Part shown: positions 6,478 through 57,602 of the stretch, in pieces
How the letters are laid out: each line of letters starts with the position of its first letter
Numbering within the stretch: position 1 is the first letter of the stretch
Assembly: GCA_016342745.1 (NCBI GenBank)
Contig: JAEINT010000004.1
Location: forward strand, 124,001 to 188,000
DNA: 64,000 bases
Direction: 5' to 3'
From: Labilibaculum sp.
Lineage (GTDB): Bacteria; Bacteroidota; Bacteroidia; Bacteroidales; Marinifilaceae
Translations under genes and position numbers: made by a program
Notes under the pieces: model-generated
Told to the model about the DNA's origin: nothing
What the model saw: only the letters and a program-made list of their open reading frames with translations
Databases searched by the model: none

Positions 6478-6787
6478 GTCAAACTCGTGCTACCCTATCA
6501 AAAATAAAAAAAATATGTGACGAAAATTTAAGACAAACCTAAATATTTCACATAACCACCTACCCCAGTGGCCCTTACAAAAGCTGTTGGAAATATCGAT
6601 TTTGAATAATAAATCATTTTTCTAACATCAAGCTTGAAAAAATGGCTTTAAAAAAAGTGATCCAAAAATTGATAGTGCTGCACAATTAAATATTTATCCA
6701 CGAATTCTGGAGATTAATTCAGATAATAAAAAAGCTGCACTAATTTGCTATATCTGTAAACAGACTTAAAAAGATTTCATAAATGCT
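6478..6787. other. intergenic region with a short coding-like remnant
   Basis: This 310-base gap separates fecR from the sigma gene and probably holds the fecR-susC promoter. An inverted pair ATATGTGA (6513-6520) and TCACATA (6548-6554) is visible. On the plus strand, a frame ending at the TAA at 6767-6769 is open for about 43 codons and reads like protein (it contains L-N-I-Y-P-R-I-L-E-I-N), but it has no start codon. I cannot assign it to a family. It may be a relic of a lost gene or chance. Confidence 0.3.
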
Positions 6788-37000: not shown

Positions 37001-38159
37001 CCATATTGATGTTATTATTGAAGACAATGGCTTGGGAATGCCTGCAGATCAAGCTAAAAAAATATTTGACCGATATTATCAAATTGATAATTTAGAAGGT
37101 AAAACCAATCGTCATGGAAGTGGTATTGGACTTGCCCTGTGTAAGAATATCCTAAAATTACATGATGGTCAAATATTTATCGATAGCGAGGAAGGAAAAG
37201 GCACGAAGTTCTCGGTTCGTCTTCAAAAAGGAAATCGTCATTTTAAGGAGAAAGAATTTGCGTCTGAAGGCAATTTAATCGATGATACTTCTGAAGTCTC
37301 TCAACCCCTTTTACTAGAGAAAAAGGAAGAGATTACGGAAGAAAGCCAAATTCAAGAACAAGCTCCTAATGTTTTAATTGTTGAAGATAATCCTGAAGTA
37401 CAAAAGATGTTGTCTGATTTACTTGATAAAATGTATAATATTTTGATTGCTTCCGATGGTAATGAAGGAATTAAAATAGCCATTGAACACCAGCCAGATT
37501 TGATTCTATCGGATATCATGATGCCAAACCTTACTGGTACTGAGATGTGTGCAAAGCTAAAACGAAACATACAAACCAGTCACATACCCATCATTCTATT
37601 AACGGCTAAATCAGCAACTAAATTCAAAATTGAAGGCTTGGAAACGGGTGCTGATGATTACTTAACCAAACCATTCAACACCAAAATACTAAAGGCTAGA
37701 ATTAAAAATCTACTGCAAAACAGAATGTTGCTGCAGCAAAAATTCAGACAAGATCCGAAAGCTGAAATCAAAGAAATTACGACTAACTCTATCGATCAAA
37801 AGGTTCTTAAGCTAGCAAAGGAAATTGTAGAACAGAATTTGGACAATACAGAATTTGACGTACAAGAATTTGCACGAGAAATGGGAATTGGTAGAACCAG
37901 ACTCTATTCTAAAATCAAAGGCGTAACCGGACAAACACCAAATGAGTTCATTCTATCTACAAGACTAAAAAAGGCCGCGGACATGCTTCTTACCAATGAA
38001 GAAGAAATGAATGTATCCGAAATTGCCTACTCCGTTGGATTTAGCACACCTCGCTACTTTAGCAGATGTTTCCGGGAGCATTTTGGTGTTTCGCCATCAA
38101 GATATGGGAAAGCTAATGATGGTAGTAGTGTTGAGAATGAAGATGAAACTGAAAATTAA
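34098..38159 (+). CDS. hybrid two-component system regulator (sensor kinase, receiver, AraC HTH)
   Basis: One-protein two-component system of 1353 residues. A signal peptide (1-22) is followed by a periplasmic pair of seven-bladed propellers built from Reg_prop repeats (about 25-680, many W-I-G-T or W-V-G-T turns) and a Y_Y_Y domain (about 690-765). A membrane helix spans about 773-793. The cytoplasmic part has HisKA with phospho-acceptor His831 in I-S-H-E-F-R-T-P, HATPase with E-D-N-G-L-G-M-P, a receiver with Asp1139 in L-S-D-I-M-M-P, and an AraC-type HTH (about 1235-1345). Such regulators bind an oligosaccharide in the periplasm and activate PUL genes. It is flanked by GH88 and by PL6 genes, its probable targets. 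Confidence 0.97.
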   Translation: MTIKAKLFLIGLIFFFCTAQSQQISFDYLGVNDGLSQNSVTTLAQDSLGRIWIGTRDGLNVYDGTQIRTFRPIRGDSTSLLGHFINSIISDANDLWIISKNGLSRLNTTNLQFDQYPKKGLISIAKFKNEVIVGTHRGLFTLNQKNSLFEKKDKILTEELTIQNLYPDRSGTLWIGTDQGLFAYNPDKQLTEKILNTNTTCIFTDSKKQVWVGTAENGVFLLNNQRRQIAHFVHSENTLSIVNNTIRDINEDPNGNIWVGTFLGLSIINNNTHKISNYTNNKNSDNSLSHNSIYSILKDQQGSMWLGTYFGGISYFNPDFHLYQKYPVIEHDGYGISFNVVGEMIEDSNKNLWIATEGGGIDFYDRQNNIFKHYRHEEGQAGLSHNNVKALAFIDKNTLLSGTHMGGINILNIKTGKFQNFLIDKKQDGSLQSNIVDEIIAYQDIFLLGTKSGIIKFDPKTHQLSPLFQKDNEYNLNEKSIICLLEDSFGVLWIGTEEQGLFSYDSKSGEIREFQSSSTDLNSISGNNIACIFEDHQFRLWFGTHGGGLDQYNREKGVFTNYNMAKNNLPSDFIQGIKESRFGNLWIASSKGLSRLDIENNKIYNHSQKNGFPLNEINKGALYLTSDGEIFVGGINGLVSFNEEEMLNRSNNFKLILTSISVNNSKVIPNAPTQILNKDLPYTEKLILKPGQNVFTVNYSACNYISTNQNTYQYQLEGFDTEWINSDDKTSITYTNLNPGDYTLRVRGLSGVEETIIDEKQLLIQINPPLYRTWYAIIAYFLFVIGISWWLNKTYRARLKLENTIKLEKQEKTQIKELNQSKLNFFTNISHEFRTPLTLITGTIESILEDSKTRPATYKKLITTHNNAVRLNNLITELLDFRKLEHGKIKLKVNENDLVVFLNEITQSFEQYAQYHEIKLNFKSPSNLSLWFDKKQLEKVFYNIISNAFKFVTDKTGSISIHTIESQNHIDVIIEDNGLGMPADQAKKIFDRYYQIDNLEGKTNRHGSGIGLALCKNILKLHDGQIFIDSEEGKGTKFSVRLQKGNRHFKEKEFASEGNLIDDTSEVSQPLLLEKKEEITEESQIQEQAPNVLIVEDNPEVQKMLSDLLDKMYNILIASDGNEGIKIAIEHQPDLILSDIMMPNLTGTEMCAKLKRNIQTSHIPIILLTAKSATKFKIEGLETGADDYLTKPFNTKILKARIKNLLQNRMLLQQKFRQDPKAEIKEITTNSIDQKVLKLAKEIVEQNLDNTEFDVQEFAREMGIGRTRLYSKIKGVTGQTPNEFILSTRLKKAADMLLTNEEEMNVSEIAYSVGFSTPRYFSRCFREHFGVSPSRYGKANDGSSVENEDETEN

Positions 38160-38387: not shown

Positions 38388-39800
38388 ATGAAACCTATTA
38401 TTACTATTGCTTTATTGCTTGTTATCAATCTTATTTCGTGTACTAATCCAAGTTCAAACAGGATATATACATCAACCAATACCGAATTACAAACAGCACT
38501 CAATCAAGCAAATCCTGGCGATACCATAATTGTTAAAAATGGCGATTATCACAACATGTTGTTGGAAATGAATAGATCAGGAAATAAAGACAAGCGAATC
38601 ACAATTAAAGCTGAGACAGCAGGGAAATCTTTTTTTACCGGAGAAACAGGAATTCGTATAAAAGGCGATTATATAACATTTTCTGGATTTAGTTTTGAAG
38701 GTGCCATGATTCATTCGGAATTTGTTGATCTTAAAGAAAAGTATAAAGAAATAAATTTCCGAAAATATGAACATCCTCCATTGATTGAATCAGAAGGAAG
38801 TTATAACACCTTCGAAGATTTATATATTAATAAAGTAAGTAATAATCCGAAACTCGATCACCACACTTATTTTTTATTACATGATAGTACTCAGTACAAT
38901 ATCATTAACCGTTGTTGGTTAGAGAGAAAAACTCAGCGCGGTATGGGTGTCTTAATTCATGCTACAAAAGATTTTCATGAAGGTAGATATCATGTTGTTA
39001 CAAACTGCTATTTCAAAGCGGACAGGCAAGATGGCAATGGAGGCTCTGCTGTTAGAATAGGAACTGGAATGGAAACAACGGAAGGAATTGCCAAATGCAC
39101 TGTAAAAAACTGTTTCTTCGATGAATACGACGGAGAAGAAGAAATTTTCAGTATTAAATCCACTGGCACTACTTTAGATTCTAATACATTTCTGAATTGC
39201 AGGGGAATGCTTTCATTTCGACATAGTCATAATAATGTTTTGAGCAATTGTTTTATTATCAACAACGACGAATCACCTATAGAAGGTGGCTTCTTTTGTA
39301 TTTGGGGGAAAGGACACAAAATTGTAAATAATTATTTTTACGGATCTAAGAGAAACAAACGTACTACAGGCACTATCTCCATGATTTCAGGAAATAGCGA
39401 TAAAATAACCACAACACATGAAGCTGTAGCTGATATTTTAATCAAAGACAATATTATCTATGAAAGTGATACAAGTGGTTATGCAATAACTGTCGGAGCC
39501 AGACACAAATACCGCTCAGAAAATAGATCTATATTACCGAGAGATGTTACAATTGCCGGTAATTACATTTACAACAGCTCAGAAAAAGAACAAATAAAAT
39601 ATACCGAATCTCCAAAAAACATCAAATATTCAGACAATAAAGTATTCGGAAATATAGGATTATCTCCGGTTCCTGAAGGCATTGTAAAAACAGATATAAA
39701 ACTGGTTGCTGATAAGTACGGAATTTATCGTGCAAAAGGAAAAGGTCCTGCAGGTAATCCTCTATCTAAAAAAGATGTTGGTCCGAAATGGCTACAATAA
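38388..39800 (+). CDS. PL6 polysaccharide lyase, copy 1
   Basis: Lipoprotein of 470 residues (I-S-C near residue 18) with the PL6 beta-helix. The family pattern of a catalytic Lys and Arg 21 residues apart is present: Lys257 in F-S-I-K-S and Arg278 in L-S-F-R-H-S-H-N-N. The same spacing is found between Lys250 and Arg271 of chondroitinase B. PL6 enzymes cleave alginate or dermatan/chondroitin-type uronic acid linkages by beta-elimination with calcium. With PL8, GH88 and sulfatases around, a glycosaminoglycan-like or other sulfated uronate polymer is as likely as alginate. The next gene, 22 bases on, is a paralogue. Confidence 0.92.
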   Translation: MKPIITIALLLVINLISCTNPSSNRIYTSTNTELQTALNQANPGDTIIVKNGDYHNMLLEMNRSGNKDKRITIKAETAGKSFFTGETGIRIKGDYITFSGFSFEGAMIHSEFVDLKEKYKEINFRKYEHPPLIESEGSYNTFEDLYINKVSNNPKLDHHTYFLLHDSTQYNIINRCWLERKTQRGMGVLIHATKDFHEGRYHVVTNCYFKADRQDGNGGSAVRIGTGMETTEGIAKCTVKNCFFDEYDGEEEIFSIKSTGTTLDSNTFLNCRGMLSFRHSHNNVLSNCFIINNDESPIEGGFFCIWGKGHKIVNNYFYGSKRNKRTTGTISMISGNSDKITTTHEAVADILIKDNIIYESDTSGYAITVGARHKYRSENRSILPRDVTIAGNYIYNSSEKEQIKYTESPKNIKYSDNKVFGNIGLSPVPEGIVKTDIKLVADKYGIYRAKGKGPAGNPLSKKDVGPKWLQ

Positions 39801-39822
39801 TATTTAATTAACTATTATAATA

Positions 39823-41178
39823 ATGAATAAGTTTACTACAAAAAGTATAATACTCCTTCTAATGGGTTTATTATACCAAAATACTTACGCTGTAAATACA
39901 TATGTAAGTAACCCACAAGAATTACAAACTGCTGTGGATAATGCCTTACCTGGAGAAACGATTATACTAAAAAATGGAATTTATAAAGATTTCCTTTTGA
40001 CAATCTCGACATCAGGATTAGAAAATAAAATAATTACAATAAAAGCTGAACACGGAGGGAAAGCGAAATTCCAAGGTAAAGTGGGTATTTTAGTAAAAGC
40101 TAACTACCTTAAATTATCAGGTTTTGATTTTGATAATGCTTCACAACACAATACAAGCGATCGTCTAATTGATATTCAAGGAAGTTACAACCTGATTGAA
40201 GACATGTATATTAATCATTTAAGTAATGGTTCACATCGAAATCATCGATATATTTATTTTTCGAATAAAGCAACGCATAATACAATTGACAGATGCTGGT
40301 TCGAAAAAGAAAAACAACATGGTATGGTTATTTTTGGAGACAATGATCCTACAGTAAATGGAACCTATAACATTATTCAAAATTGCTATTTTAAGGCTAA
40401 GAGACAACCTGATAACGGAGGTTCTGCCATTCGATTTGGTACAGGAATGAAGAAAAAAGAGATTATTGGCGCCAACACAGTCAGAAATAATCTTTTTGAC
40501 CACTACGATGGAGAAAATGAAATCATGTCAATAAAAAGCAGTAACAACTTAGTAGAAGCCAATACATTCAAAAATTGTTATGGTCAATTGACTTGTAGGC
40601 ATTACCATAACAACATTGTAAAAGATAACTTTTTCATTACTACCGATTCTAATCTGATTGATGGTGGCACCATTACTATCTGGGGAGAAGGGCACCAAAT
40701 TACTAACAATTATTTCTATCAGGCTAAGCCTCGCTATTCTGATGCAGGAGCAATAATTTTCACTGCAGGAAATGGAACTCACTTTAGTTCTCATCATCAA
40801 CGTGCTAAAAACATTCTTATCAAAGATAATATTATCTACGAGTGTAATTCGACCAGTCATGCCATTACATTTGGCAATTTATATGAAAGAACTCCAACAA
40901 GAATCTTAATGCCAGAAAACATTAACATTACAGGTAATTGCATTTACCAAAGCACGAATAAAGAACAAATTCACTATGTGAAAGATTGTAATTCGATCCA
41001 TTATTCTGAAAATATTATTTATAAAAATGCAGGCTTTAAAAAACTACCTGAAGGTATCTACGAAGTCAATCCAAATTTTAAGCCCGACATGTATGGGATT
41101 TATAGATTGGCTGGTAAAGGACCTAAAGGAAATCCTCTATCTAAAAAAGATGTTGGTCCGAAATGGCTAAAGAAATAG
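39823..41178 (+). CDS. PL6 polysaccharide lyase, copy 2
   Basis: Exported protein of 451 residues; the signal ends near T-Y-A-V without a lipobox Cys, so it is probably soluble in the periplasm. The first copy is a lipoprotein. Lys238 in M-S-I-K-S and Arg259 in L-T-C-R-H-Y-H-N-N keep the 21-residue spacing of the PL6 active site. The two copies differ over most of their length, yet both end with G-N-P-L-S-K-K-D-V-G-P-K-W-L, encoded by 39 identical bases. The pair may split the work between surface and periplasm or between two linkages. Confidence 0.92.
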   Translation: MNKFTTKSIILLLMGLLYQNTYAVNTYVSNPQELQTAVDNALPGETIILKNGIYKDFLLTISTSGLENKIITIKAEHGGKAKFQGKVGILVKANYLKLSGFDFDNASQHNTSDRLIDIQGSYNLIEDMYINHLSNGSHRNHRYIYFSNKATHNTIDRCWFEKEKQHGMVIFGDNDPTVNGTYNIIQNCYFKAKRQPDNGGSAIRFGTGMKKKEIIGANTVRNNLFDHYDGENEIMSIKSSNNLVEANTFKNCYGQLTCRHYHNNIVKDNFFITTDSNLIDGGTITIWGEGHQITNNYFYQAKPRYSDAGAIIFTAGNGTHFSSHHQRAKNILIKDNIIYECNSTSHAITFGNLYERTPTRILMPENINITGNCIYQSTNKEQIHYVKDCNSIHYSENIIYKNAGFKKLPEGIYEVNPNFKPDMYGIYRLAGKGPKGNPLSKKDVGPKWLKK

Positions 41179-45091: not shown

Positions 45092-46813
45092 TTATTCAGC
45101 TCTTGAAATCAAAGCTTCACTTTTTGTAATCCCATTTTCATTGAAGGCTTCAATGGTGAAAAAGTATTCCTGATTGCTATTCAAACTTCGAATCGTTACT
45201 GCTGTATCGCCATAAACAAGGTAATTGTGATACAATTTGTCCTTCGCATTTCCATAGCTGATGTTGTATCCTGTGGCATGTTCCGATTTATTCCAACTTA
45301 AATCAACTGCTCTTCTGTCCTTTTTTCGTAAGACTGTCAAAGACTTAACTGCCGATGGCTTAGCACCCGAACCTTTTCCAAACACTCTAAATCCAGAAAT
45401 GGCGAAACTACCATCGGGAACCTGAATGTTTTTAACGCGCAAATAACGATAGCTTACCTTCTCACTCAACTGAATGTAATCATGCGAATTGTCATTGTCG
45501 TTCTTCGATTTGTCAACAAGCACGGCCCAATCTTCGTTGTTGTTGGAAGCCTCAATTACATACTGATGACGCAAACCAGCAAGTCTACCAAACAAATTGG
45601 TATTTTGCTCTGCAAAGTTCATCTGAATAGCGTAAACATCGTATTGCTCGCCCAAATCGATACTAGCCCATTCGCTACCATCTCCCGTAGCCGCAGCCCA
45701 ATAAGTACGAATATTCTCATCGTTGATATTACTCGCTTGGTAAGCGTCTAAAGTAGACGAAACGCTCACTTTTTTGTTGTAAGACAAAAGCATCCATCCT
45801 GGAAAGATATCCTCAAAGCTTTTAATCTTTTTATTTGGAATTGCAATTGGGTAATCGCCATATTTTGTAGTGGAATACATTATGCCATCCTCATCCCAAA
45901 AAGCTGGGTAAAATCCCACTCTACGTTCAAATTTATGCTTTACCGATATGGAAATGGTTCCCAAATGCCAGAAATTACCATAGGCATCTTCAATTGTACT
46001 TCCATGACCTGCACCACAAGCAAAACCTTCTGGTTTGTATGCAAACGGATTGTGCTCCGCCAAAGTAAATGGCCCCATCGGATGATCAGCAACATAAACC
46101 CCATCAGCATAAGACTTCTCTCTTGTACCTGGCGCTGAATACTGCAAATAGTATTTGCCATTGTGCTTGTTCATCCAACAACCTTCAAGCCATGGTGCAT
46201 TTTCATATTCTGTATTGTAATCGCCTCTTACTTCCCAACCATATTCGGCAGGATTCTGATTCAACACCTCCTTGGTTTCGCCAATCACATTAAAAGTATT
46301 CACATCAATTTCGCTAACATACAATGGCTTCACATTCGAACATCCCCAATACAAATACAATTTCTCATCCGTATCCTGATAAAAACAAGGATCTTCAACA
46401 GGAAAGTCCAAATCATCAACTGCCAACCATTTCCCACTCTTTGGATCGGCGGATTTATACACCTTCTTATTGTGCTTCGACGAAATCGCCATAAAAATCG
46501 TATCTCTCAAAACAATTGCTGTTGGTGCATAATCCTCAACCGGTATTTCGTTGGAAAGAACAAAGGTCCATTGTGCTAAATCTTTCGAATGCCAATAGCC
46601 ACCCGATTTCGAAGCAAACAAATAGTATTCTCCTTTAAATTCAATAACGGTAGGATCGGCCGCTTCCCTTCTCGATTCCCCATCGGGTCTGAATCGGTAA
46701 GACAAATTCATTGGATTGCACACCGTCGCTAATTCTGTTTTTGCTATAGATGGCTTTTCAGCACAACTGGCAAACAAAATTGCTACGAGTAAACTCAGTA
46801 CTAACTTTCTCAT
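45092..46813 (-). CDS. GH43 glycosidase with F5/8-type C and FN3 domains
   Basis: Lipoprotein of 573 residues (L-F-A-S-C). The five-bladed GH43 propeller (about 30-330) shows the three expected acids: Asp53 in A-A-D-P-T-V-I, Asp141 in V-E-D-P-C-F-Y, and Glu210 in W-L-E-G-C-W-M. A discoidin-like F5/8 C domain (about 350-470, W-A-S-I-D-L-G) and a fibronectin III domain (about 480-570) follow, probably for binding glycan and spacing. GH43 enzymes act on arabinose, xylose or galactose links. It lies 28 bases after the PL8 gene, so the two work on the same polymer. Confidence 0.93.
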   Translation of the reverse strand: MRKLVLSLLVAILFASCAEKPSIAKTELATVCNPMNLSYRFRPDGESRREAADPTVIEFKGEYYLFASKSGGYWHSKDLAQWTFVLSNEIPVEDYAPTAIVLRDTIFMAISSKHNKKVYKSADPKSGKWLAVDDLDFPVEDPCFYQDTDEKLYLYWGCSNVKPLYVSEIDVNTFNVIGETKEVLNQNPAEYGWEVRGDYNTEYENAPWLEGCWMNKHNGKYYLQYSAPGTREKSYADGVYVADHPMGPFTLAEHNPFAYKPEGFACGAGHGSTIEDAYGNFWHLGTISISVKHKFERRVGFYPAFWDEDGIMYSTTKYGDYPIAIPNKKIKSFEDIFPGWMLLSYNKKVSVSSTLDAYQASNINDENIRTYWAAATGDGSEWASIDLGEQYDVYAIQMNFAEQNTNLFGRLAGLRHQYVIEASNNNEDWAVLVDKSKNDNDNSHDYIQLSEKVSYRYLRVKNIQVPDGSFAISGFRVFGKGSGAKPSAVKSLTVLRKKDRRAVDLSWNKSEHATGYNISYGNAKDKLYHNYLVYGDTAVTIRSLNSNQEYFFTIEAFNENGITKSEALISRAE

Positions 46814-46841: not shown

Positions 46842-49800
46842 TTACTTCACCAACAATACCTCAGCACTTAATCCATCTCTGCATTCAAATTCTACAACAG
46901 TCTGTTTTTTATCTGATGATACAATCTTAGCATTCTTCATTTCGGCAGTTTCCATTTCTTTTAGCTGCTTTTCAATCTTCCATTTGCCCTTTAAAGTCAA
47001 CTGTACTTTCGTAGATCTACTTTTCCAATAGAACCATTCTCGCTCGTATATCGACAATTCGCAACGAGAACCATCAGGTAATAAATCATCTTGACCATCG
47101 TAGATATTCAAATCAGGATCGGCAACCGAAAGCACGAGCTTCTGCCCTTCTTCCTTCACTAAGAAGGTAGCCTGTTTATTAACTTTCGCAACCAATCCTT
47201 TCTTGAAAGCTGCACCTTGCTTTGCATATACCGCGTAGGCGACTGCTTTTTCCTCATTCAATTTCACAACATGTGCCTCTTCATTTTGCTGTAGTACTTC
47301 AATTGGCTTGGTCTTGCTTTCCATACGCTCGACAAATGCATTCATTTTTACTGCATCGGCATTGGCTAGTAAAACATATTGGTAGGAAGCATTTTTTGGT
47401 GCACTTCCGTGATTAATATAAGCAGTGGCAAAATTTCCTTTTACTTCGCCCTTGTTCTTGTAATCAGGATTCTTTTGTTCCGAACGTTTAAAAATCAATT
47501 CAGCACCTTCGCCAATGTCCGAAATGTAGAAACCTGTATTTCGATTGTCAATCATCCACAAAGGATTCTTAACACTCATGCTTTTGGCATATGGAAATGT
47601 ACTGATTTCGCCATCAAAACTGGTATTTGTTAGTACACCGCTTTCCTCTAAATGCGTTTGGAAAAGACTTGTTTCCACATCGTAAGTCAAATCAGATTGA
47701 ATATCTGTTCCCAAACAAAGCACTTTATCCTTGACAAAGAAATAAGTTTTTTTGCCAGTAAAACCTTGCAAGTTAAACTTGTTGTGCCCTTTAAACTGAA
47801 AAGCATAAATTCCGCAGCCATAAGAAGTAGAAACGCCACCCGAAAAGGCCTGATCACTCAACAAATACTCTCCCGCCTCATCGCGGACTTGTCCCGGATC
47901 GGTTAACATTTCGCTGTATGGCAAATGTACAGCTGTCACACCCGGCCACAAATGCCAGTCGTATCCTTTAAACCATTTATCATTTTTAGGCGTTGGACTG
48001 TCGACACTTTCCGGATAAGCAACATCCAAATAACCATTGGCGATAAACAAAGGAAAGGCTTGAAATGATTTCCCCCAACTTTCGAAGGGGTATACATATT
48101 TGCTGTGTGCTCGTACCGAAATCATGTAATCATCCTGCTGACGATTCATGCCTACACAAGTGTATGGAAACACCTTGCAGCCGGTGTAATTGTAGTCCTC
48201 TTTTGTCAATCGCAAAGCAGCCAATTTCTTTGTCCAGAACTTATGGTCATCCTGTTCTTTTCCATATTTCGCTAGCAAATCATCATACAAAGCGGCCATT
48301 TCCTCATCAAACTCTTTCGCCGAAAGAGCCAACATTGCAGGGATTGGAAAGAATAAATCTGGCAGAGTATAATTGCTAAAACGAATGCTGGCAAAAGCCT
48401 TGGGTGCCATAATCTCATCGGTAAACATTTGAAATAAGTAGGTCTCGGTAACTTTTTTCATTCGAGAATAAGAAGTTTCGCTAGCCGCAAAAGAAGTTCC
48501 CGATAATATGTACATGGTAGAAACCGCACCATTAATCGCACGACCACCATAACCAAAAGCATGACCGGCATGATGAAAAACCGTACCATCTGGCTTAAAA
48601 GTTTCGTCTAATGCCTGAGCATAGCCCGTTGTGATGTTCGAAAAATAAGACGAAAAATGACGCAAATCTCTTGACTTTTCAGCAGAATCTTCCTGCATTA
48701 GTGCAGTTAGTAAACGGGGTATCAACAGACCTTGAATTTCATCGGCGTTACCAGCAACACGCCCTGCACACCCATAAACTTCTTGCTCATTATATACCTG
48801 ATTAAAAGAATAAAACCATCGACAAATATCAATTGCCTTGTTCAATCGCTTGTGTTTTTTCAGTACATCGCGCATGATAAACATGGCTGGGCCATATTCG
48901 CGAATGTTGTAAGAATAATGATGCAACCACCCCAAACCAGCTCCAAAATCAAAACCCTGATCAACGCCATAATCAAAAAGGTTGATGAACATTTCTTCCA
49001 ATTCATCCTTTATTTCCTTGTTATGGCTATAGTAATGCAGGTTCGAAATATCGCGCAAAACGTAATTAAAATCCTGTCGCCAGCGCATTAAACCATCAAA
49101 TTTCTCCTCTTTGGGTAATTTTAGCTCTTTAAAATGATCATTCATGATGTGCTGATAGATTAACGGACGGCCATAAATCTTATCTTCTTCACGCCTAATC
49201 TGAAAGCTTTCGTATTTCGCCTTCACCTTAGCAAACTTGCCATCGCTGTTTTTTTCACGATTGTAGTCTGGCCAATACAGATCCATCACCTGATGCTCTA
49301 TTTTTCTAAAGTCTGCAATTTCATTTTTGTCTAACTTTTCCAATTCATAAGTTGGCCTGAATTTACTGTACTCCATTAACAAATGCGGATATTGAGAAAC
49401 CAAGCGTGGGTGCTGATCGATATTTGGCAATTGCGGATTTGGCCCTACCGTTCGCGGATTCATCGTAACCGAAGTGCCCAACATATCGAAAAAGAAAGTT
49501 CCCGAACCTGTAGCCGGCGCATTAATGGTCATTCTTGTCATGTCTTCGCGAGGAACACCACGCATATCGCCACGATCGTAAGCAATTGCAATGCTTCTCC
49601 AGCCTTTAAAATTCAGGTTGAAATCGAATTCGCAATCAACAACATTCTCACGTCCGAACTGAATGCGCAAACGCTGATTTCTTGCCTCATCGTTATACAC
49701 CCACATAAAAAATCCCCTCGGATCTTCCAAAATTGGATTGCTAAGCGAACCGCCATGTCCATCTCCTTTTTCCAAAGCATCTGCTCCCAACATTCTTTGT

Positions 49801-50057
49801 TTGTGGTAGCCAATGGGTGTATCAAATACAATTTGATCGTTCCCTTTCCATTGCCATTTCAAAGATTTCTCACCTTGCTTCATTCGATGTTCATCGATGG
49901 AAATGGCTCGACCTGTGGCCGATAATCCTTTGGGAATTCCCTCTTCGAAACTTTCTAGAATTTTGGCCGGAGCCTGCAATTCTTCCTTTGTATTCTGAGC
50001 AAAAATTGGAATGCTAGCGGAAATAAACACCCCAATTGCAAGTAGCTTTAATCTCAT
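46842..50057 (-). CDS. PL8 lyase of the chondroitinase ABC type
   Basis: Exported enzyme of 1071 residues. An N-terminal lyase jelly-roll domain (about 30-190, I-L-E-S-F-E-E-G-I-P) precedes the alpha/alpha toroid (about 210-590) and the C-terminal beta-sandwich domains. In P-D-G-T-V-F-H-H-A-G-H-A-F-G-Y-G-G, His496 and Tyr503 keep the seven-residue spacing of the catalytic His501 and Tyr508 of Proteus chondroitinase ABC. The enzyme should cleave hexosaminide or hexosyl-uronate links by beta-elimination and leave an unsaturated uronate for GH88 or GH105. PL8 also includes hyaluronan and xanthan lyases, so chondroitin is only one option. Confidence 0.92.
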   Translation of the reverse strand: MRLKLLAIGVFISASIPIFAQNTKEELQAPAKILESFEEGIPKGLSATGRAISIDEHRMKQGEKSLKWQWKGNDQIVFDTPIGYHKQRMLGADALEKGDGHGGSLSNPILEDPRGFFMWVYNDEARNQRLRIQFGRENVVDCEFDFNLNFKGWRSIAIAYDRGDMRGVPREDMTRMTINAPATGSGTFFFDMLGTSVTMNPRTVGPNPQLPNIDQHPRLVSQYPHLLMEYSKFRPTYELEKLDKNEIADFRKIEHQVMDLYWPDYNREKNSDGKFAKVKAKYESFQIRREEDKIYGRPLIYQHIMNDHFKELKLPKEEKFDGLMRWRQDFNYVLRDISNLHYYSHNKEIKDELEEMFINLFDYGVDQGFDFGAGLGWLHHYSYNIREYGPAMFIMRDVLKKHKRLNKAIDICRWFYSFNQVYNEQEVYGCAGRVAGNADEIQGLLIPRLLTALMQEDSAEKSRDLRHFSSYFSNITTGYAQALDETFKPDGTVFHHAGHAFGYGGRAINGAVSTMYILSGTSFAASETSYSRMKKVTETYLFQMFTDEIMAPKAFASIRFSNYTLPDLFFPIPAMLALSAKEFDEEMAALYDDLLAKYGKEQDDHKFWTKKLAALRLTKEDYNYTGCKVFPYTCVGMNRQQDDYMISVRAHSKYVYPFESWGKSFQAFPLFIANGYLDVAYPESVDSPTPKNDKWFKGYDWHLWPGVTAVHLPYSEMLTDPGQVRDEAGEYLLSDQAFSGGVSTSYGCGIYAFQFKGHNKFNLQGFTGKKTYFFVKDKVLCLGTDIQSDLTYDVETSLFQTHLEESGVLTNTSFDGEISTFPYAKSMSVKNPLWMIDNRNTGFYISDIGEGAELIFKRSEQKNPDYKNKGEVKGNFATAYINHGSAPKNASYQYVLLANADAVKMNAFVERMESKTKPIEVLQQNEEAHVVKLNEEKAVAYAVYAKQGAAFKKGLVAKVNKQATFLVKEEGQKLVLSVADPDLNIYDGQDDLLPDGSRCELSIYEREWFYWKSRSTKVQLTLKGKWKIEKQLKEMETAEMKNAKIVSSDKKQTVVEFECRDGLSAEVLLVK

Positions 50058-50227
50058 GGTATCCGTTTTTTCAAGTACTGTAAAATTACATCTTCCAAAT
50101 TTCGCCTTTTTAAAACTAAGAAAGGGCTACAATTGTGCGCAAGCTAAGCACTTATTATACAGTCAAAATACATACACTTATCTCTTGTCGCTAACAAAGA
50201 GCACTTTAGCGGCGTTAACTATATAAA

Positions 50228-50257
50228 AAAGCCTAACGATTCACACTGTTAGGCTTT
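50228..50257 (-). terminator. terminator after GH105
   Basis: AAAGCCTAAC (50228-50237) and its complement (50248-50257) form a perfect stem. On the minus strand a run of T follows. It separates the BNR_4-GH105 unit from PL8-GH43, which must have its own promoter in 50058-50227. Confidence 0.85.
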
Positions 50258-50282
50258 CTACTATCTAATAAAACTCTTATTT

Positions 50283-51392
50283 CTATTTGCTGTACAGTTT
50301 AAAAACTTCCGAACCGGCACTTAAGAAAGCACCTGTACCGTACACTTCCGATTTATCGGGCCAAGCCTTACCTGGTGCTGCGCCAATTGGCTGCACATAG
50401 CCCAACATGCCATCTTCGGTAATGCAATTGCACATTGCATTCCATGCTTTTCGCACTACTGGCTCGTAGGTTTCCGCATCTAATATTCCTTGGTTAATTC
50501 CCCAAGCCAAACCAAAAGTAAAGAAGGAAGAACCGCTGGTTTCTGGTGTAGGGTAATGTTCTTGTCCCAACAAACTCATTGCCCAATGGCCATTTGGCGT
50601 TTGAATCTCCACCAACTTTTTAGCCATCTTCTTGTAAATTTTAAGGAAATATTTGTACTCCTTTTCTTTCGGATCTAATTCCTTTAAAATGTTTGCCAAA
50701 CCAGCAAACACCCAACCATTACCTCTTCCCCAAAATATTTTTGTTCCGTTGTCGAGTTTGCCCATATAACCCTCATCGCGATAGTACAGATTCTCTTTTT
50801 TATCGAACAAAAAGTCGGTAGTTGCTTTGTATTCCGAAAGCATAAAGTCCAAATACTTTTTCTTTTTGGTAATCTTATACAATTGTGCCCAAACTGGTGG
50901 CGACATAAACAGGGCATCGCACCAATTCCAACGATCTTGATGAAATGGTGTTCTCCAATTCAATTTACTCTGAGAAGGATGGTATAGGATAAAATCGAAC
51001 TGCTTGCGCGTTGCTTTAATCATTTTCTCGTCGCCATACTTGCGGTACAATTCGCAATACATTTGCCCTATGGTATGATCATCGGCATGATACTGGCGCT
51101 TGTGCAAGGTCCAATTCTGCTCTTCTCCAATATTTTTCAACCAATTGTAATAGGCATCATCATCGGCCATTGCAGCCCATTTTTGCATGCCTACATAAAG
51201 CGCGCCATTGGTCCAGTCGGCAATATGATGTGCTTTATCTCGCCCACTAAAACAATCTTTAAAATGTTCTATTTGCCAATCGGCAACTCGTTTCATTTCC
51301 TTTTTCACCTCTTCGGGCTTAATGCTTTGTGAAAATCCAGGCTGCATAAATAAGAGCAACAGGCTCAGTAAAATAAATTTGCTAAGTCTCAT
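50283..51392 (-). CDS. GH105 unsaturated uronyl hydrolase
   Basis: Exported alpha/alpha-six-barrel enzyme of 369 residues (signal ending G-F-S-Q). Family motifs are H-A-D-D-H-T-I-G-Q-M-Y near residue 103, W-N-W-C-D-A-L-F-M-S-P-P with the expected catalytic Asp159, and G-R-G-N-G-W-V-F-A-G near residue 225. GH105 removes unsaturated rhamnogalacturonyl or glucuronyl ends from lyase products. It starts 30 bases after the BNR_4 gene, so that protein is the likely upstream partner, possibly a lyase. Rhamnogalacturonan and ulvan-type substrates are both known for the family. Confidence 0.94.
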   Translation of the reverse strand: MRLSKFILLSLLLLFMQPGFSQSIKPEEVKKEMKRVADWQIEHFKDCFSGRDKAHHIADWTNGALYVGMQKWAAMADDDAYYNWLKNIGEEQNWTLHKRQYHADDHTIGQMYCELYRKYGDEKMIKATRKQFDFILYHPSQSKLNWRTPFHQDRWNWCDALFMSPPVWAQLYKITKKKKYLDFMLSEYKATTDFLFDKKENLYYRDEGYMGKLDNGTKIFWGRGNGWVFAGLANILKELDPKEKEYKYFLKIYKKMAKKLVEIQTPNGHWAMSLLGQEHYPTPETSGSSFFTFGLAWGINQGILDAETYEPVVRKAWNAMCNCITEDGMLGYVQPIGAAPGKAWPDKSEVYGTGAFLSAGSEVFKLYSK

Positions 51393-51422
51393 ATGAATTA
51401 ATATTTGAGTTTCAGAATCTAA

Positions 51423-52718
51423 TTAATCTAAGGTATAATCTATTCGGGTTTTATAATTGGTATAATGAACATATTTCTCGTTTACCATCCAAAGCAAGAC
51501 GGTCTTATCCCCACGTTTCATATTTTGCGGAACAACAGGTCGTACATTATCGTATTTCGAATTTTGCGTTATGGGCGTAATGTCCCACGATTTTCCATGA
51601 TCAGAAGTTACTCTCTTTTCAATTTCGAATATTCCATTCACATCTTTCGAAATGTAAATGGTATTCGCCTCTAAAGGATGAATGCACATGCCTCCTGAAT
51701 AGTGTGGCTCTTTTTCAACTTTTCCTTCTTGAGTTTGTGGAAACCATTTTCCCGAATTACAAATTTCATGATCGATCCATTCTCCTTTTACATATTGCGC
51801 ATAACGATACAAATGCTCTGTTTCTTTCGGATATCGCGCATACAGAATAACCGGATTTCCTTTTTTATCTGCATTAACATCGTACACCCAAGCTCTTCCC
51901 TCCTGTTCAGTCGCTCTATAAACTACCGATGCCTCTTTGGGTTCAAAAGGCAATTGATCGAAATCACAAATTTTTGTGCCATCAATTCTCCAAAAGGCTC
52001 CCTTCTCGTAACAAGCATAATATACCGAATTGGTTTTTTCATTCCGCGGGTGACCATCTGTAAAAACAATATGAATTTTTGATTGCCCATCGGAATAGTA
52101 ACGCACATATGGTCGATTTCCGCCTTGAAATGGTTTATTTGTGATAAAGACGCGCGCATCAGAGAATGATTTCCCATTGTCGTCCGACCACATTATATTT
52201 GGTTTAAAACCTGTCCATCTGCCAAAACAATAAATACGCCCATTTTCCTTTTTCAATTGAAATGGGTTTGCATAAGTCACACACTTTCGTGGATACAGCT
52301 TAAACTGCTCCTTATTCAGTACCTTTTTTGCAATCAGCGATGAAAATTCTGTTTCCCCCTTGTTCAAATGATGAAACCGAACCACTGTATCCATGTGCTT
52401 GGCATAGCTCATTAAAACGTCGCCATTCTTTAATTCTAAAAAAGAAGGGTTGGCATGATCATCCTTATCCAATTTTGAGCTCACATTTTGAATTTTCTTC
52501 TCTCCGGATTTCAAATTAAGAATCGCACTAATAATGGAACCATCTTCACTCACCCAACCAGTTGCAATTTCATCGGCAACATTGTGTTTGTAAATGGCTC
52601 TTGGTGCTGAAAACCAACACCAGGCACCATCATCAGTAATGGTTTTTTGCTGTGCAAATAAATTACTTGTCAGCAATAAAAAGCAAACGATTGATAAAAT
52701 GGCCTTTATCATTTTCAT
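51423..52718 (-). CDS. BNR_4 seven-bladed propeller protein, possible polysaccharide lyase
   Basis: Exported protein of 431 residues (signal ending L-F-A-Q). The family opening D-D-G-A-W-C-W-F-S-A-P-R-A-I is followed by repeated propeller strands, with S-D-D-N-G-K-S-F near residue 185 and S-D-H-G-K-S-W near 395 as Asp-box repeats. BNR_4 proteins occur widely in polysaccharide loci. Some ulvan lyases (PL24/PL25) share the seven-bladed propeller fold, but I cannot see their active-site signature with certainty. The tight pairing with GH105 supports a lyase role; a rhamnosidase or binding role is also possible. Confidence 0.8.
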   Translation of the reverse strand: MKMIKAILSIVCFLLLTSNLFAQQKTITDDGAWCWFSAPRAIYKHNVADEIATGWVSEDGSIISAILNLKSGEKKIQNVSSKLDKDDHANPSFLELKNGDVLMSYAKHMDTVVRFHHLNKGETEFSSLIAKKVLNKEQFKLYPRKCVTYANPFQLKKENGRIYCFGRWTGFKPNIMWSDDNGKSFSDARVFITNKPFQGGNRPYVRYYSDGQSKIHIVFTDGHPRNEKTNSVYYACYEKGAFWRIDGTKICDFDQLPFEPKEASVVYRATEQEGRAWVYDVNADKKGNPVILYARYPKETEHLYRYAQYVKGEWIDHEICNSGKWFPQTQEGKVEKEPHYSGGMCIHPLEANTIYISKDVNGIFEIEKRVTSDHGKSWDITPITQNSKYDNVRPVVPQNMKRGDKTVLLWMVNEKYVHYTNYKTRIDYTLD

Positions 52719-52840
52719 GGATTTTAATTTAAATATTCATCAACTTGTATAATCGTAGATAGAATTGAGATTGGTGATAATTACCATTCCTCTCAACTAC
52801 TATCTCAAATGAACACTATTTCGAGCATTTTGTTTATCTT

Positions 52841-52870
52841 TAACACTGTTTTAACGGTACTTGTAACGGT
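52841..52870. promoter_or_regulatory. three tandem 7-bp repeats (TAACACT, TAACGGT, TAACGGT)
   Basis: Repeats start at 52841, 52852 and 52864, a spacing of 11 and 12 bp, so they lie on one face of the helix. They fall in the divergent region between the BNR_4 operon and the winged-helix gene. OmpR/PhoB-type winged helices typically bind such tandem direct repeats. Confidence 0.5.
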
Positions 52871-52942
52871 TAAATACAACTTTAAAACACTCATTTACAG
52901 ATACCTAGCAAGCAACAGTGTAATTTGTCCCATTTTCAGTCA

Positions 52943-54094
52943 ATGAATATATCCTCAGAAAAAAAACGATTAACGCTTGATAAAATCCTCAAAAGCGAGA
53001 CTTTTTCGAAAGCTCCAACAAGCAGTTCGATGCTTCAATATTTGTTCGAGGAAACGCTAAAAGGAACCGACTTAAAAGAAAAGCTTATCGAGATCGATTT
53101 TTTTGGAGAATCAAAGAATACAGACAAAAGCAATCCTCGGGTTCGAGTAAACATTTACAACCTGAGAAAAAAACTGACAGCCTATTATGAGAAAGAAGGT
53201 AAAAATGATTTCTGGCAATTAATTATCGATAAGGGACAATATCAGGTAAAATTCGTTGCAAAAAATCCAAAAGAGCGATTGCTTAAATCAGCCAAACCTG
53301 CTATTCTAATCCCTTACCTGCTTTTGTTTGTTGTTCTAATACTATTTGCCTTAAGCCGTATGCCTAAAAAGCCACCAATGTTATGGCGTTCATTTCTTAC
53401 CAACAAAAGCGCAACTACCTTATTTGTTGGCGATGTATTTGGCGTTATGGGCACAACTGCAACTGGCAATATAGGTTGGAATCGCGACTACAACATTAAT
53501 GATCTGGAAGAGTTTTATCAATTTTGTGAAAATAATCCCGAACTTGCAAGTAATTTAAAAGCTGCAAACTATTCTTACACGAACGGAATGGCTGCCTTAT
53601 CAACACAAAGACTTACGCTCTTGTTTAAAGATTACGGGAAAGAATTTAACATTCGATTTTCGATGCAAAGCACCATTGCAGATATCAAAGAAGGAAACTC
53701 CATCTACATAGGACCATTAAAAAACAACAATAAATTTATTCACTTTTTTAATGAGGAAAATCCTTACTTTAAAATTGATGGAGATAGTCTTCTATTTTCC
53801 AATCATCCTATCCTAAGAGATACTGTGCTAAACCTTATTTCTGACGGAAGTGAATCGGACTATTCCATTGTTTCCAAAATACTTGGCCCTGATAATAGTG
53901 AGCAATTCATTTTCTTTTCGAATCATGACATTGGCGTTCGCTCTACGGTAGAGTACTTTACAAATACAGACTCCCTAGAACATTTCACGGAAAAATTTCT
54001 AGACACAAAAGACAATTTTACTGCCGTTTTTCTTACCAAAGGAGTGAACAGAAACAACACCGATTTAGAATTGATTTTGGCTGTTGGACATTAA
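52943..54094 (+). CDS. membrane-anchored winged-helix-like regulator with unknown sensor domain
   Basis: Protein of 383 residues from the ATG at 52943; an in-frame TTG at 52925 would add six. Residues about 10-100 resemble the winged-helix-like domain known from membrane regulators of Acidobacteria and other phyla: S-S-M-L-Q-Y-L-F-E-E-T, I-E-I-D-F-F-G, P-R-V-R-V-N-I-Y-N-L-R-K-K-L. One membrane helix follows (about 118-137, I-L-I-P-Y-L-L-L-F-V-V-L). The remaining 240 residues, probably periplasmic, have N-S-I-Y-I-G-P-L and D-Y-S-I-V-S-K-I-L-G-P. The layout recalls ToxR/CadC one-component regulators. It lies opposite the BNR_4-GH105 operon, its likely target. Confidence 0.7.
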   Translation: MNISSEKKRLTLDKILKSETFSKAPTSSSMLQYLFEETLKGTDLKEKLIEIDFFGESKNTDKSNPRVRVNIYNLRKKLTAYYEKEGKNDFWQLIIDKGQYQVKFVAKNPKERLLKSAKPAILIPYLLLFVVLILFALSRMPKKPPMLWRSFLTNKSATTLFVGDVFGVMGTTATGNIGWNRDYNINDLEEFYQFCENNPELASNLKAANYSYTNGMAALSTQRLTLLFKDYGKEFNIRFSMQSTIADIKEGNSIYIGPLKNNNKFIHFFNEENPYFKIDGDSLLFSNHPILRDTVLNLISDGSESDYSIVSKILGPDNSEQFIFFSNHDIGVRSTVEYFTNTDSLEHFTEKFLDTKDNFTAVFLTKGVNRNNTDLELILAVGH

Positions 54095-54119
54095 CTAACT
54101 CAATAGTCTATAAAAAAAC

Positions 54120-54151
54120 AGAAGAGAATGCCCTGATGGACATCCTCTTCT
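54120..54151. terminator. hairpin between convergent winged-helix and sulfatase genes
   Basis: AGAAGAGAATG (54120-54130) pairs with CATCCTCTTCT (54141-54151) with one mismatch. An A run before it gives a U tract on the minus strand for the sulfatase; on the plus strand the tail is short. Confidence 0.7.
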
Positions 54152-54221
54152 TTAAGGTACACTTATGTTCTTTCTTTTATTATTTGATTTTCTCAAACAC
54201 CAATAAGCTTCATTAAAATGA

Positions 54222-55751
54222 TTAGTAATTTAGATAATCACCACAAATTTCATTTTGTGACCATTTGTCGTCAATAGCTTTCAATTGCTTGACCAACTCA
54301 GCATTAAACTTAGCCACCAATTTTTCATCCATATCGTCACCTTTAATTCGGTTCATTTGGTATGGATCTTTTTTGTTATCGTAGTAAAATGACTCTTTAA
54401 AGTCAACCGTATTCGATGTTGTTACCACATAGGTATAATCGCCTGTATACAATCCACGCGAATTGTAATCGAAATACAGTACTGCATTCGGAGCATTCTT
54501 TTCACTTTTCGGATTTTCGATTACATCAGCCAAATTAAGACCTTGTACCGAAGCTGGTATCTTATCTTCCAATCCAACCATAGCCAATAAGGTCGGCATC
54601 ATATCTGGGGTACTCAACATTACATCTTCTACACGGTGCTTTAACTTGTTTCCCCACTTAATAATGAATGGAATGTTAAAGGCCTCGTTTTCTGGGAATG
54701 GTTTTCCTTTGTGTCCATGACTTCCCAACATTTCGCCATGATCGGAAGAAAACACGATAATTGTGTTATCAGCAACACCCATTTTTTCCAACTTTTCCAA
54801 TACCAAACCAATAAAATGATCTACCGCACTCACATTTGCAAAATAGTAAGGAGCATATTCCCCAACCTTTTTATCGGCATTACCTCTAAGTAGTAATTCA
54901 TCTATTTTTACATCTCCATGGTCTGTGTACTGAGGGAAGAAAGTCATATCGGTACTTTCCTCTGTCCATGGATTATGTGGCGGATTTAATGCCCAAGTAA
55001 TAAAGAATGGTTTGTCGGTATCACGCTGTCCGTGTGAGTTGTCTAGGTAATTCAACAATGCTTCTGCCTCAAATTCGGCAGAAAAACGCTTAGGCTGATA
55101 CAAATCTCCATCTTTAATTCCTTTAATTGCTTTAGGATCATTTGAATAACAAAGTGGATCTTTATGCGTATCACGCAAGGTTTGAAAGAAATAGCGATAA
55201 CCCAAACGATCTGCCCCTGGTGGAACGTAAGTATCGTATCTGTTTACGAAATGACCGCCCGGCGCCTCTTCGCTTCCTACATAAGTACCTTTCTCGTCGA
55301 AAAGTGGTTCTGTTCTTTGCCAATGGCATTTTCCAAAATAAGCCGTTTCGTAACCCCCTTCGGCAAATACATTTGCCATAGCCTTGCCATCTACCTTAAT
55401 TCCAACTTCGCGATCTTTTCGACAATTCGCTGTTAAGCCATTTGTGTATGGATATTGTCCACTCATTAACATGCCTCTAAAAGGACTGCACAATGGAAAA
55501 TTACTCATGGCCTGACTAAAAACGATTCCTTCGTTAGCTAACTTATCCAAGGCAGGTGTTTTTACAGGGTCGGGCGTTCCATGTATGTATTTTGCATTGT
55601 CTCCCTGCGACCAAAAACCCAAACTAAACTGACGGTACTGATCAGGAAAAATGAAAATTACATTAGGCGCTGCTTCCTCTTTCACCTCTCCACATCCAGA
55701 AAATGACAAAACAAACATTGTCAAAATTCCCCAAACTATATTTCTTCTCAT
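54222..55751 (-). CDS. S1-family sulfatase (second, different type)
   Basis: Type I sulfatase of 509 residues with a lipoprotein-like signal (S-F-S-G-C). The formylglycine motif is C-S-P-F-R with Cys88, in F-P-L-C-S-P-F-R-G. Metal-site segments are I-F-I-F-P-D-Q-Y-R near residue 33 and F-S-S-D-H-G-E-M-L-G-S-H-G near residue 335. The Asp-Gln instead of Asp-Asp at the first metal site occurs in several S1 subfamilies. It differs strongly from the sulfatase at 13827, so it probably removes sulfate from another position. It is opposite a LacI-type gene and may be controlled by it. Confidence 0.94.
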   Translation of the reverse strand: MRRNIVWGILTMFVLSFSGCGEVKEEAAPNVIFIFPDQYRQFSLGFWSQGDNAKYIHGTPDPVKTPALDKLANEGIVFSQAMSNFPLCSPFRGMLMSGQYPYTNGLTANCRKDREVGIKVDGKAMANVFAEGGYETAYFGKCHWQRTEPLFDEKGTYVGSEEAPGGHFVNRYDTYVPPGADRLGYRYFFQTLRDTHKDPLCYSNDPKAIKGIKDGDLYQPKRFSAEFEAEALLNYLDNSHGQRDTDKPFFITWALNPPHNPWTEESTDMTFFPQYTDHGDVKIDELLLRGNADKKVGEYAPYYFANVSAVDHFIGLVLEKLEKMGVADNTIIVFSSDHGEMLGSHGHKGKPFPENEAFNIPFIIKWGNKLKHRVEDVMLSTPDMMPTLLAMVGLEDKIPASVQGLNLADVIENPKSEKNAPNAVLYFDYNSRGLYTGDYTYVVTTSNTVDFKESFYYDNKKDPYQMNRIKGDDMDEKLVAKFNAELVKQLKAIDDKWSQNEICGDYLNY

Positions 55752-56100
55752 TTTATATTATTTAAAACATGATTCTTCTGTACATTCCAATAAAGCTCCT
55801 TCCCTACAGAAAGAAGTCTGACCAAAATTAGATAATCCAAGTCCATACAAGGATTACAATAGTGCAGAATAGGGCAAAAATCATACACTCATTAAATATC
55901 TGTAAGCTCAAAATCAATACCAATAGCTAATTTACATGTGATTGTGAAATTTATGTAATTGTAGCGATTCAATTAATCAAAAATATGATTTTTATCAACT
56001 TTAATTTTGAAAAAGCGACATTCTACACATTAATTATTAGCAATTCCATTTTAATTGATTAATAATTGTAAAAACATTCTATTGATATGAACAGAACACT
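55752..56100. other. divergent intergenic region sulfatase/LacI
   Basis: No gene is seen. Minus-strand TAATTTTG at 55823-55830 matches the Bacteroidota -7 consensus and is well placed for the sulfatase. The rest is AT-rich without clear repeats. Confidence 0.4.
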
Positions 56101-56108
56101 TATTTTTG
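56101..56108 (+). promoter_or_regulatory. TAnnTTTG -7 element for the LacI-type gene
   Basis: TATTTTTG matches the consensus, 78 bases before the start codon. A TTG lies about 16 bases upstream, shorter than the ideal spacing. Confidence 0.45.
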
Positions 56109-56134
56109 TTCTTTAACTATAATTGTAAACTTTC

Positions 56135-56167
56135 TATTCAGAATAAACTGCTGTCCTATTCTGAGTA
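56135..56167. promoter_or_regulatory. two related half-palindromes in the lacI-type leader
   Basis: TATTCAGAATA (56135-56145) is a perfect 11-base palindrome and TATTCTGAGTA (56157-56167) is a close copy 22 bp further on. Their place just after the predicted -7 element suits an autorepressor site. Confidence 0.4.
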
Positions 56168-56185
56168 TCTAGAAAAAGGAGAAAA

Positions 56186-57238
56186 ATGGCAAAAATTCGT
56201 ATTAAAGACATTGCTGAACAAGCTGGCGTATCGGTAGGAACAGTAGATCGTGTTCTTCACAATCGAGGTGAAGTTGCTGAAGAAACGAAGACCAAGATCC
56301 TAGAGATTGCCAAGAAAAACAATTATCAGCCTAATCTTATTGCAAGAGCCTTAACTTCAAAAAAACAATGTGTATTCGCCTCGCTATTGCCAACACCAAC
56401 CGAAGAAGATATTTTTTGGAGAAGACCTTTGGATGGAATTAGTGACGCTGCAGAAGAATTAGAACAATTTCAAGTCGTTGTAAAGAAGTACTTTTTCGAA
56501 CATTACAACGAGCAAGACTTTATTGTACAAACCGAAGCCATTTTAAAGCTAAATCCAGCAGGTGTAGTCTTCTCTCCTATCTTCACTAAAGAAAGTTTAG
56601 CCTTCACAAAAAAGCTCGATAAAAAAGGAATTCCATACGTTTTTATTGAATCTAAATTAGAAAATAGTAATTATTTAGCCTACGTAGGAAGCGATGGATA
56701 CAACGGTGGAAGAGTCGCAGCAAACCTAATTGATTTTGGAATTTCTAAAAATGCAGATGTTCTAGTAGTCAACTTGGCTAAAAATCTTGAAAATGTTCTT
56801 CACCTAAATCAGCGAACTCAAGGTTTTCTAAGTTACTTTATGGATAAGGGGAATAACGAGGGATTAAAAATATCGATCGAGATTCCAACGTCAAAATCAG
56901 ACCTAATTAAAGAAAAACTGAATCACGTTTTAAAGCAAAATAAAAACATTAAGGCCATTTTCACAACTGGCTCCAAAGTCTATAAAATTGCTCGATACCT
57001 CGAAACGAATCAGTTGGACGATATCATATTGGTTGGCTTCGATCCCATCGATCAAAACATTCACTACCTGAATAGAGGAAGTATAAACTTCTTAATTGGC
57101 CAGCATCCATATCAACAAGGATTTAAAGCAGTCAAGAAACTGTTCGAACATGTTTTATTACAACATAAAATAAGCAAAGATGAATACCTTCCAGTTGACA
57201 TCATCAATTGTGAGAGCATAAAACTATACAAAGCATAG
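56186..57238 (+). CDS. LacI-family transcriptional regulator
   Basis: DNA-binding regulator of 350 residues. The LacI helix-turn-helix is at 4-25 (I-K-D-I-A-E-Q-A-G-V-S-V-G-T-V-D-R-V-L) with the hinge helix ending near N-L-I-A-R-A-L (about 50-58). The rest is a periplasmic-binding-protein-like effector domain (about 62-345) with V-G-S-D-G-Y-N-G-G-R-V-A-A-N and a late G-F-D-P-I-D. It probably senses a sugar. An unusual feature for this genome is a clear Shine-Dalgarno GGAG at 56178-56181. The divergent sulfatase is the nearest candidate target. Confidence 0.94.
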   Translation: MAKIRIKDIAEQAGVSVGTVDRVLHNRGEVAEETKTKILEIAKKNNYQPNLIARALTSKKQCVFASLLPTPTEEDIFWRRPLDGISDAAEELEQFQVVVKKYFFEHYNEQDFIVQTEAILKLNPAGVVFSPIFTKESLAFTKKLDKKGIPYVFIESKLENSNYLAYVGSDGYNGGRVAANLIDFGISKNADVLVVNLAKNLENVLHLNQRTQGFLSYFMDKGNNEGLKISIEIPTSKSDLIKEKLNHVLKQNKNIKAIFTTGSKVYKIARYLETNQLDDIILVGFDPIDQNIHYLNRGSINFLIGQHPYQQGFKAVKKLFEHVLLQHKISKDEYLPVDIINCESIKLYKA

Positions 57239-57262
57239 TCAAAAAAAGAGGTTCATAAAAAA

Positions 57263-57284
57263 GCCTGACTTAAACAGGTCAGGC
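57263..57284 (-). terminator. terminator after the TPR gene
   Basis: GCCTGAC (57263-57269) pairs perfectly with GTCAGGC (57278-57284). On the minus strand tttttta follows. It lies 28 bases after the TPR stop and also sits just past the LacI stop. Confidence 0.8.
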
Positions 57285-57311
57285 TCATAGAATCATTATA
57301 TTTTAATCGAA

Positions 57312-57602
57312 TCAAGGATTATATAAATCAGGATTAAAATAATCCATAATCGATTTAATCATCTCAACTTTTACCTTGGCTTTTTTATGATCTGGTTCAA
57401 TATCTGTCACACGAAAATAGGCACTCATTGCTGCAGGTAACTCCCCTAACTGGTGATACATTTCTCCCACCTTAAAAAGAGCTTCTACATTCTCCTTATC
57501 TACCTCAACTACCTCCTGATATTTTTCCAAGGCAGATCGAAACTCCTCCAAAGCCTCTAGCTTCATTGCTTCGATTATCTTATTCTCTATATCTTTATTC
57601 AT
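57312..57602 (-). CDS. small TPR-repeat protein
   Basis: Cytoplasmic protein of 96 residues without a signal. Two TPR-like helix pairs are visible: L-E-A-L-E-E-F-R-S-A-L-E-K-Y-Q-E-V-V and A-L-F-K-V-G-E-M-Y-H-Q-L-G-E-L, followed by A-M-S-A-Y-F-R-V. Such proteins mediate protein contacts; no partner is suggested by the neighbours. It appears to be a single-gene unit. Confidence 0.8.
   Translation of the reverse strand: MNKDIENKIIEAMKLEALEEFRSALEKYQEVVEVDKENVEALFKVGEMYHQLGELPAAMSAYFRVTDIEPDHKKAKVKVEMIKSIMDYFNPDLYNP

Follow-up and report, generated by a model that had tools for sequence, protein, structure and literature searches.

The gene at 52943-54094 of the window (the whole stretch of 64,000 nucleotides of Labilibaculum sp. 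that we analysed) belongs to a family of single-pass membrane proteins that carry an OmpR-type winged helix and face glycan genes in the divergent orientation, and in one clade of this family a conserved predicted operator is inherited together with the regulator. Taken as a whole, the explanation that we regard as likely is a membrane-anchored one-component regulator, which binds this operator, senses a glycan and activates the facing BNR_4-GH105 operon. The cytoplasmic winged helix, of OmpR/PhoB type, would bind three half-sites at 52839-52873, which are spaced by about one helical turn. The periplasmic domain of 240 residues would act as the sensor, the most likely signal being an oligosaccharide set free from a sulfated glycan that contains uronic acid, and the single membrane helix would relay this signal, probably via altered dimerisation. 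The bound regulator would then activate the BNR_4-GH105 promoter, standing in for its missing -33 element. A single-pass winged-helix one-component regulator for BNR_4-GH105 had been proposed in a preliminary description of this DNA, and the OmpR-like domain, the charge bias placing the N-terminus inside and the operator found throughout the clade all argue for it, as far as sequences can tell.

The regulator and its domains

The gene and the parts of its product are the following:

52943..54094, plus strand: regulator gene, 383 aa, open frame from the ATG at 52943 to the stop ending at 54094
52952..53272, plus strand: winged helix of OmpR/PhoB type, residues 4-110 (PF00486, hhalign and AF2 model)
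53297..53356, plus strand: single transmembrane helix, residues ~119-138 (hydrophobicity, and a helix in the AF2 model)
53372..54091, plus strand: predicted periplasmic alpha/beta sensor domain, residues 144-383 (AF2)

Full-length relatives with 22-85% identity were found in the regulator's own genome, in Labilibaculum, Echinicola, Belliella and in other Bacteroidota, and therefore the open reading frame is a real gene. The relatives with 77-85% identity belong to Labilibaculum and to one more genome of the same family, those of Echinicola and Belliella show 44-45%, and the own genome holds three such genes, namely the window regulator and two full-length paralogs at around 27%. An in-frame TTG is located at 52925, upstream of the ATG at 52943, and the alignments of the Labilibaculum relatives start at this ATG. 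The regulator was present in 12 of 99 genomes of relatives and in 12 of 296 genomes from a spread of Bacteroidota, both counts including its own genome. More distant relatives were located on plasmids of Persicobacter, Catenovulum and Novosphingobium, with a partial match on a Granulicella plasmid. Outside the Bacteroidota the plasmid-borne relatives belong to Proteobacteria and Acidobacteria, therefore the family crosses phyla. No Pfam or NCBIfam model recognised the window protein (its single-sequence scan gave no Pfam match of note), and we found no description of the family, the operator or the sensor in the literature searched.

Regarding the winged helix, 42 of the 44 family members matched PF00486 (Trans_reg_C) when isolated domains were scanned with E up to 1, the best of them with E 6.5e-6. 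The cut-off of this model is 26.2 bits, and the best match (L088) was just above it with 26.6 bits, the other listed scores being below; the domain of the window protein reached 14 bits versus the 26.2 required. The profile of the 44 family domains matched the eight OmpR-type domains of the own genome with E 7e-6 in hhalign, and a PDB profile search with the winged helix gave weak top matches that were mostly OmpR-family domains, for example ArlR. In the AF2 model the helices span residues 25-40, 46-54 and 66-84 and are followed by a hairpin, the recognition helix lying at around residues 66-84. Going by the alignment, VRVNIYNLRKKL and IDKGQYQVKF would be the counterparts of the recognition helix and the wing of OmpR-type domains. 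OmpR-type domains carry an N-terminal beta-sheet, in place of which the model of the window protein has helices. Judged by its sequence, this winged helix is a divergent one of the OmpR/PhoB type.

Exactly one hydrophobic helix was found in each of the 44 family members. The net charge of the flanking 20 residues had a mean of +3.6 before the helix and +0.5 after it, and the N-terminal side was the more positive one in 38 of the 44 members, the expected bias being absent in the other 6. This charge bias, on which the orientation is based, supports a topology with the N-terminus probably inside and the C-terminal domain outside.

The 240-residue outer domain was modelled by AF2 as one confidently predicted domain (pLDDT 91.1, pTM 0.88). 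It had no match in Pfam or NCBIfam, and neither the whole protein nor a profile of the sensor found a match among PDB sequences. The best Foldseek matches were BcsB and the N-domains of GH115 and GH67 alpha-glucuronidases. All of them were weak (best E 3.5e-3, TM to the query at most 0.40), so we rejected the assignment of the sensor to a BcsB or GH115/GH67 N-domain fold and left its fold unclaimed. BcsB and GH115/GH67 are carbohydrate-associated proteins, which is suggestive only as to the sensor. No ligand site was identifiable in the outer domain, and we infer direct periplasmic glycan binding by it.

The architecture of the preliminary description, that is a winged-helix-like domain, a single membrane helix and an outer domain of 240 residues of no recognised family, was therefore borne out: the winged helix at profile level (PF00486 and hhalign), the membrane helix in every family member as well as in the AF2 model, and the outer domain by the searches of Pfam, NCBIfam and PDB sequences.

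Divergent neighbours and the predicted operator

The surroundings of the regulator gene contain these features:

51423..52718, minus strand: BNR_4 protein, whose gene opens the presumed target operon (PF15892, E 1.5e-28)
50283..51392, minus strand: GH88/GH105 unsaturated uronyl hydrolase, encoded second in this operon after a 30 bp gap (PF07470, E 8.8e-86)
46842..50057, minus strand: PL8-family lyase closest to chondroitinase, possible further target
45092..46813, minus strand: GH43, possible further target
54222..55751, minus strand: sulfatase, convergent with the regulator
52839..52873, plus strand: predicted operator TTTAACACTGTTTTAACGGTACTTGTAACGGTTAA with three half-sites at spacings of 11 and 12 bp (intergenic alignment, motif model)
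52806..52813, minus strand: candidate -7 box of the BNR_4 promoter, TTCATTTG on that strand, 33 bp from the operator

The gene upstream of the regulator was divergent in all 44 Bacteroidota members that had this gene inside the fetched stretch. Many of these members are close kin, so the pairings amount to fewer than 44 independent cases. In most members the annotated divergent partner was a GH2, GH3, GH28, GH43, BNR_4, alginate lyase, SusC/TonB receptor or sugar transporter gene, the exceptions including planctomycete-type cytochrome proteins and one Ig-domain protein. Outside this set, the Granulicella relative faces a TonB receptor adjoining a GH1 gene, one Catenovulum relative faces a cytochrome operon and has a beta-galactosidase on the other flank, and for Novosphingobium no confident call of the upstream gene was obtained. 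Where a protein has only the winged helix in common with the family and its C-terminal part is of TPR type, the neighbours were of other kinds.

Some single loci deserve mention. One clade of the family (L080, L083 and L119) faces DUF1553/planctomycete-type cytochrome genes and not classic PUL genes. Two winged-helix proteins with C-terminal TPR repeats (L089 7111-8694 and L090 7374-8969) adjoin a DcaP porin gene, and their intergenic region also contains TTTAACGGTTAAA. One genome (G252) has a regulator pair with a GH3 gene between in two near-identical copies (L072 1478-6515 and L073 8562-13819), and in one of the copies the GH3 is split into three frames. The SusC facing the regulator of Echinicola shivajiensis is in two frames (L009 6764-9769), which may be a genuine break or an error in the sequencing.

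A conserved block, TTTAAC-N5-TTTAACGGTA-N4-TAACSGTTA, emerged when the divergent intergenic regions were aligned; in the window it lies between the regulator gene and BNR_4-GH105. It was present in 18 of 18 members of the window protein's clade, whose facing genes are unrelated (BNR_4, GH2, SusC), and in all of them the AAC half-sites were spaced 11 and 12 bp. These 18 operator-bearing proteins form one clade with a support of 100/100. We trained a motif model on the seven BNR_4-type loci, in which 27 of 36 columns are invariant within the motif versus 38 of 170 in the rest, and scored it on the remaining loci. In the first set, the ten clade members not used for training scored 29.6-43.5 bits versus shuffle maxima of 4.8-12.2. 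The Persicobacter locus, which was fetched later, reached 29.0 bits between its divergent genes, and elsewhere in the 15-kb locus no site exceeded 3.7.

The pattern of two half-sites had one match free of mismatches in the own genome of 5.37 Mb (0.03 matches are expected by chance within the window); two further matches carry three mismatches, no more than the reversed control yields. In five other genomes each exact site was located at a clade regulator gene: Labilibaculum filiforme has two sites and two clade regulators, and each of the genomes of Echinicola and Belliella has a single exact site, located at the regulator gene. The site follows the regulator clade and not the target gene, so it is best read as the binding site of the regulator, and the window protein would bind 52839-52873. 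For the two paralogs of the own genome and for distant clades we rejected this operator model, as other AACGG arrangements are found there; the operator rule is therefore limited to one clade. The Rfam scan of 50000-57500 found no RNA element.

Direction of control and other explanations

On the BNR_4 strand, 13 of 17 loci have a -7-like box at a distance of 32-33 bp from the operator (with an exact CAAA in 11), the Echinicola and Belliella loci having no such box at this distance. With this spacing the operator would end near -38. In the window, the BNR_4 promoter has no TTTG at the usual -33 spacing from the candidate -7 box, and the operator lies about where the -33 element should be, suggesting activation. 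PhoB acts at promoters where the activator replaces the upstream element. An operator ending near -38, as in PhoB-type promoters, favours activation, and we consider it more likely than not that the regulator activates BNR_4-GH105 and does not repress it. An operator between both genes could block either promoter, and the regulator might accordingly repress the divergent operon and its own gene until the glycan signal lifts the repression. Nevertheless, the site does not overlap the candidate -7 box but precedes it at a constant distance of 32-33 bp, and TTTG is missing at -33; both fit an activator, which makes repression improbable.

It is also conceivable that the operator belongs to another regulator, since a LacI protein (at 56186) and an HTCS-like protein (at 34098) are encoded in the same window. 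However, the site is unique in the own genome and tracks the regulator clade through different bacterial families and alongside target genes that are unrelated, so we give this explanation hardly any credit. Less easily dismissed, although still rather unlikely, is that the outer domain senses a partner protein or the state of the envelope instead of a glycan, or that proteolysis frees the winged helix. A binding site is not recognisable in the sensor domain, its fold matches are only weak, and some known transmembrane regulators need partner proteins (PMC10269533). Against this, no conserved small partner gene was found beside the regulator, its neighbours being enzymes and importers of several kinds.

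The glycan itself is likely a sulfated uronic-acid glycan. The best PDB relative of the GH105 is 4ce7, an unsaturated 3S-rhamnoglycuronyl hydrolase (ulvan-type activity), and the sulfatase is closest to endo-4-O-sulfatase and to chondroitin/dermatan sulfate 4-O-endosulfatase. We refrained from naming one glycan because the evidence is split, the GH105 pointing to an ulvan-like substrate and the PL8 lyase and the sulfatase to a chondroitin-like one.

Relation to known regulators

SusR is described as a protein of the membrane whose sensor is periplasmic and whose DNA-binding domain is cytoplasmic, the latter C-terminal and without similarity to known domains, and its predicted sites are 67 or 77 bp apart (PMC3878776). 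Transmembrane transcription regulators (TTRs) have been reported as enriched in Bacteroidota, in a census that used Pfam models (PMC10269533). The mechanism thus belongs to a known kind, and the earlier claim of a logic not listed among PUL regulators holds only in part: SusR, which was on that very list, itself spans the membrane as a one-component regulator and there are known regulators of ToxR/CadC type, whereas the family is new. New as well are its N-terminal OmpR-type domain, its sensor domain and its operator, and the domain order differs.

The window protein shares with SusR the membrane location and, by prediction, the periplasmic sensor, the cytoplasmic DNA-binding domain and the control of local glycan genes (PMC3878776), but its DNA-binding domain is N-terminal and OmpR-like, and its half-sites are 11-12 bp apart. 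Like the ToxR/CadC TTRs (PMC10269533), it is a one-component protein with an N-terminal OmpR-type winged helix, one membrane helix and a C-terminal domain predicted to lie outside. Unlike them, its outer domain has no Pfam family, its winged helix is mostly below the cut-off across the family, and it is probably dedicated to glycan loci. The curated models did not recognise it as a member of the ToxR/CadC family proper (PF00486 below the cut-off, no NCBIfam), and neither ToxR nor CadC was among the listed fold matches of the outer domain, which had no PDB sequence match. As the winged helix is mostly below the Pfam cut-off, the Pfam-based TTR census (PMC10269533) probably missed the family.

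With OmpR/PhoB response regulators the protein has in common a winged helix related at profile level and tandem half-sites about one helical turn apart; this trait, sites around 11 bp apart, is present in 18 of 18 clade members, and their binding by the regulator is our reading. However, it lacks a receiver domain and is membrane-anchored. As in HTCS, predicted periplasmic sensing would be coupled to local PUL control, but the Pfam scan found no kinase, receiver or AraC-type domain.

A wider reading is that this phylum-crossing, membrane-anchored OmpR-type family makes up a further main class of regulators of glycan loci, in addition to ECF/FecR, HTCS and SusR, and that its periplasmic domain has a new fold for sensing carbohydrates, like that of BcsB or the alpha-glucuronidase N-domain. 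We hold it tentatively, at slightly less than an even chance, and the resemblance meant is a distant one to the flavodoxin-like part of BcsB or to the alpha-glucuronidase N-domain. In any case, an unannotated family of regulators of polysaccharide use is gained, whose predicted operator, sensor domain and target promoter are each open to experiment. As neither Pfam nor NCBIfam has a model for them, genes of this kind tend to be labelled "hypothetical protein", so the glycan loci they control are left with no assigned regulator. The regulator may offer a compact glycan-responsive switch and, being a single protein with one site per clade regulator in the genomes searched, it could reveal how a membrane-tethered protein finds its promoter.

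Apart from this regulator, the window holds an HTCS-like protein of 1353 aa (34098-38159), a LacI regulator (56186-57238) and an apparent ECF sigma/anti-sigma pair (5467-7381), so several types of regulators are found side by side. Two lyases of the chondroitinase-B family are also adjacent, in tandem, at 38388-41178.
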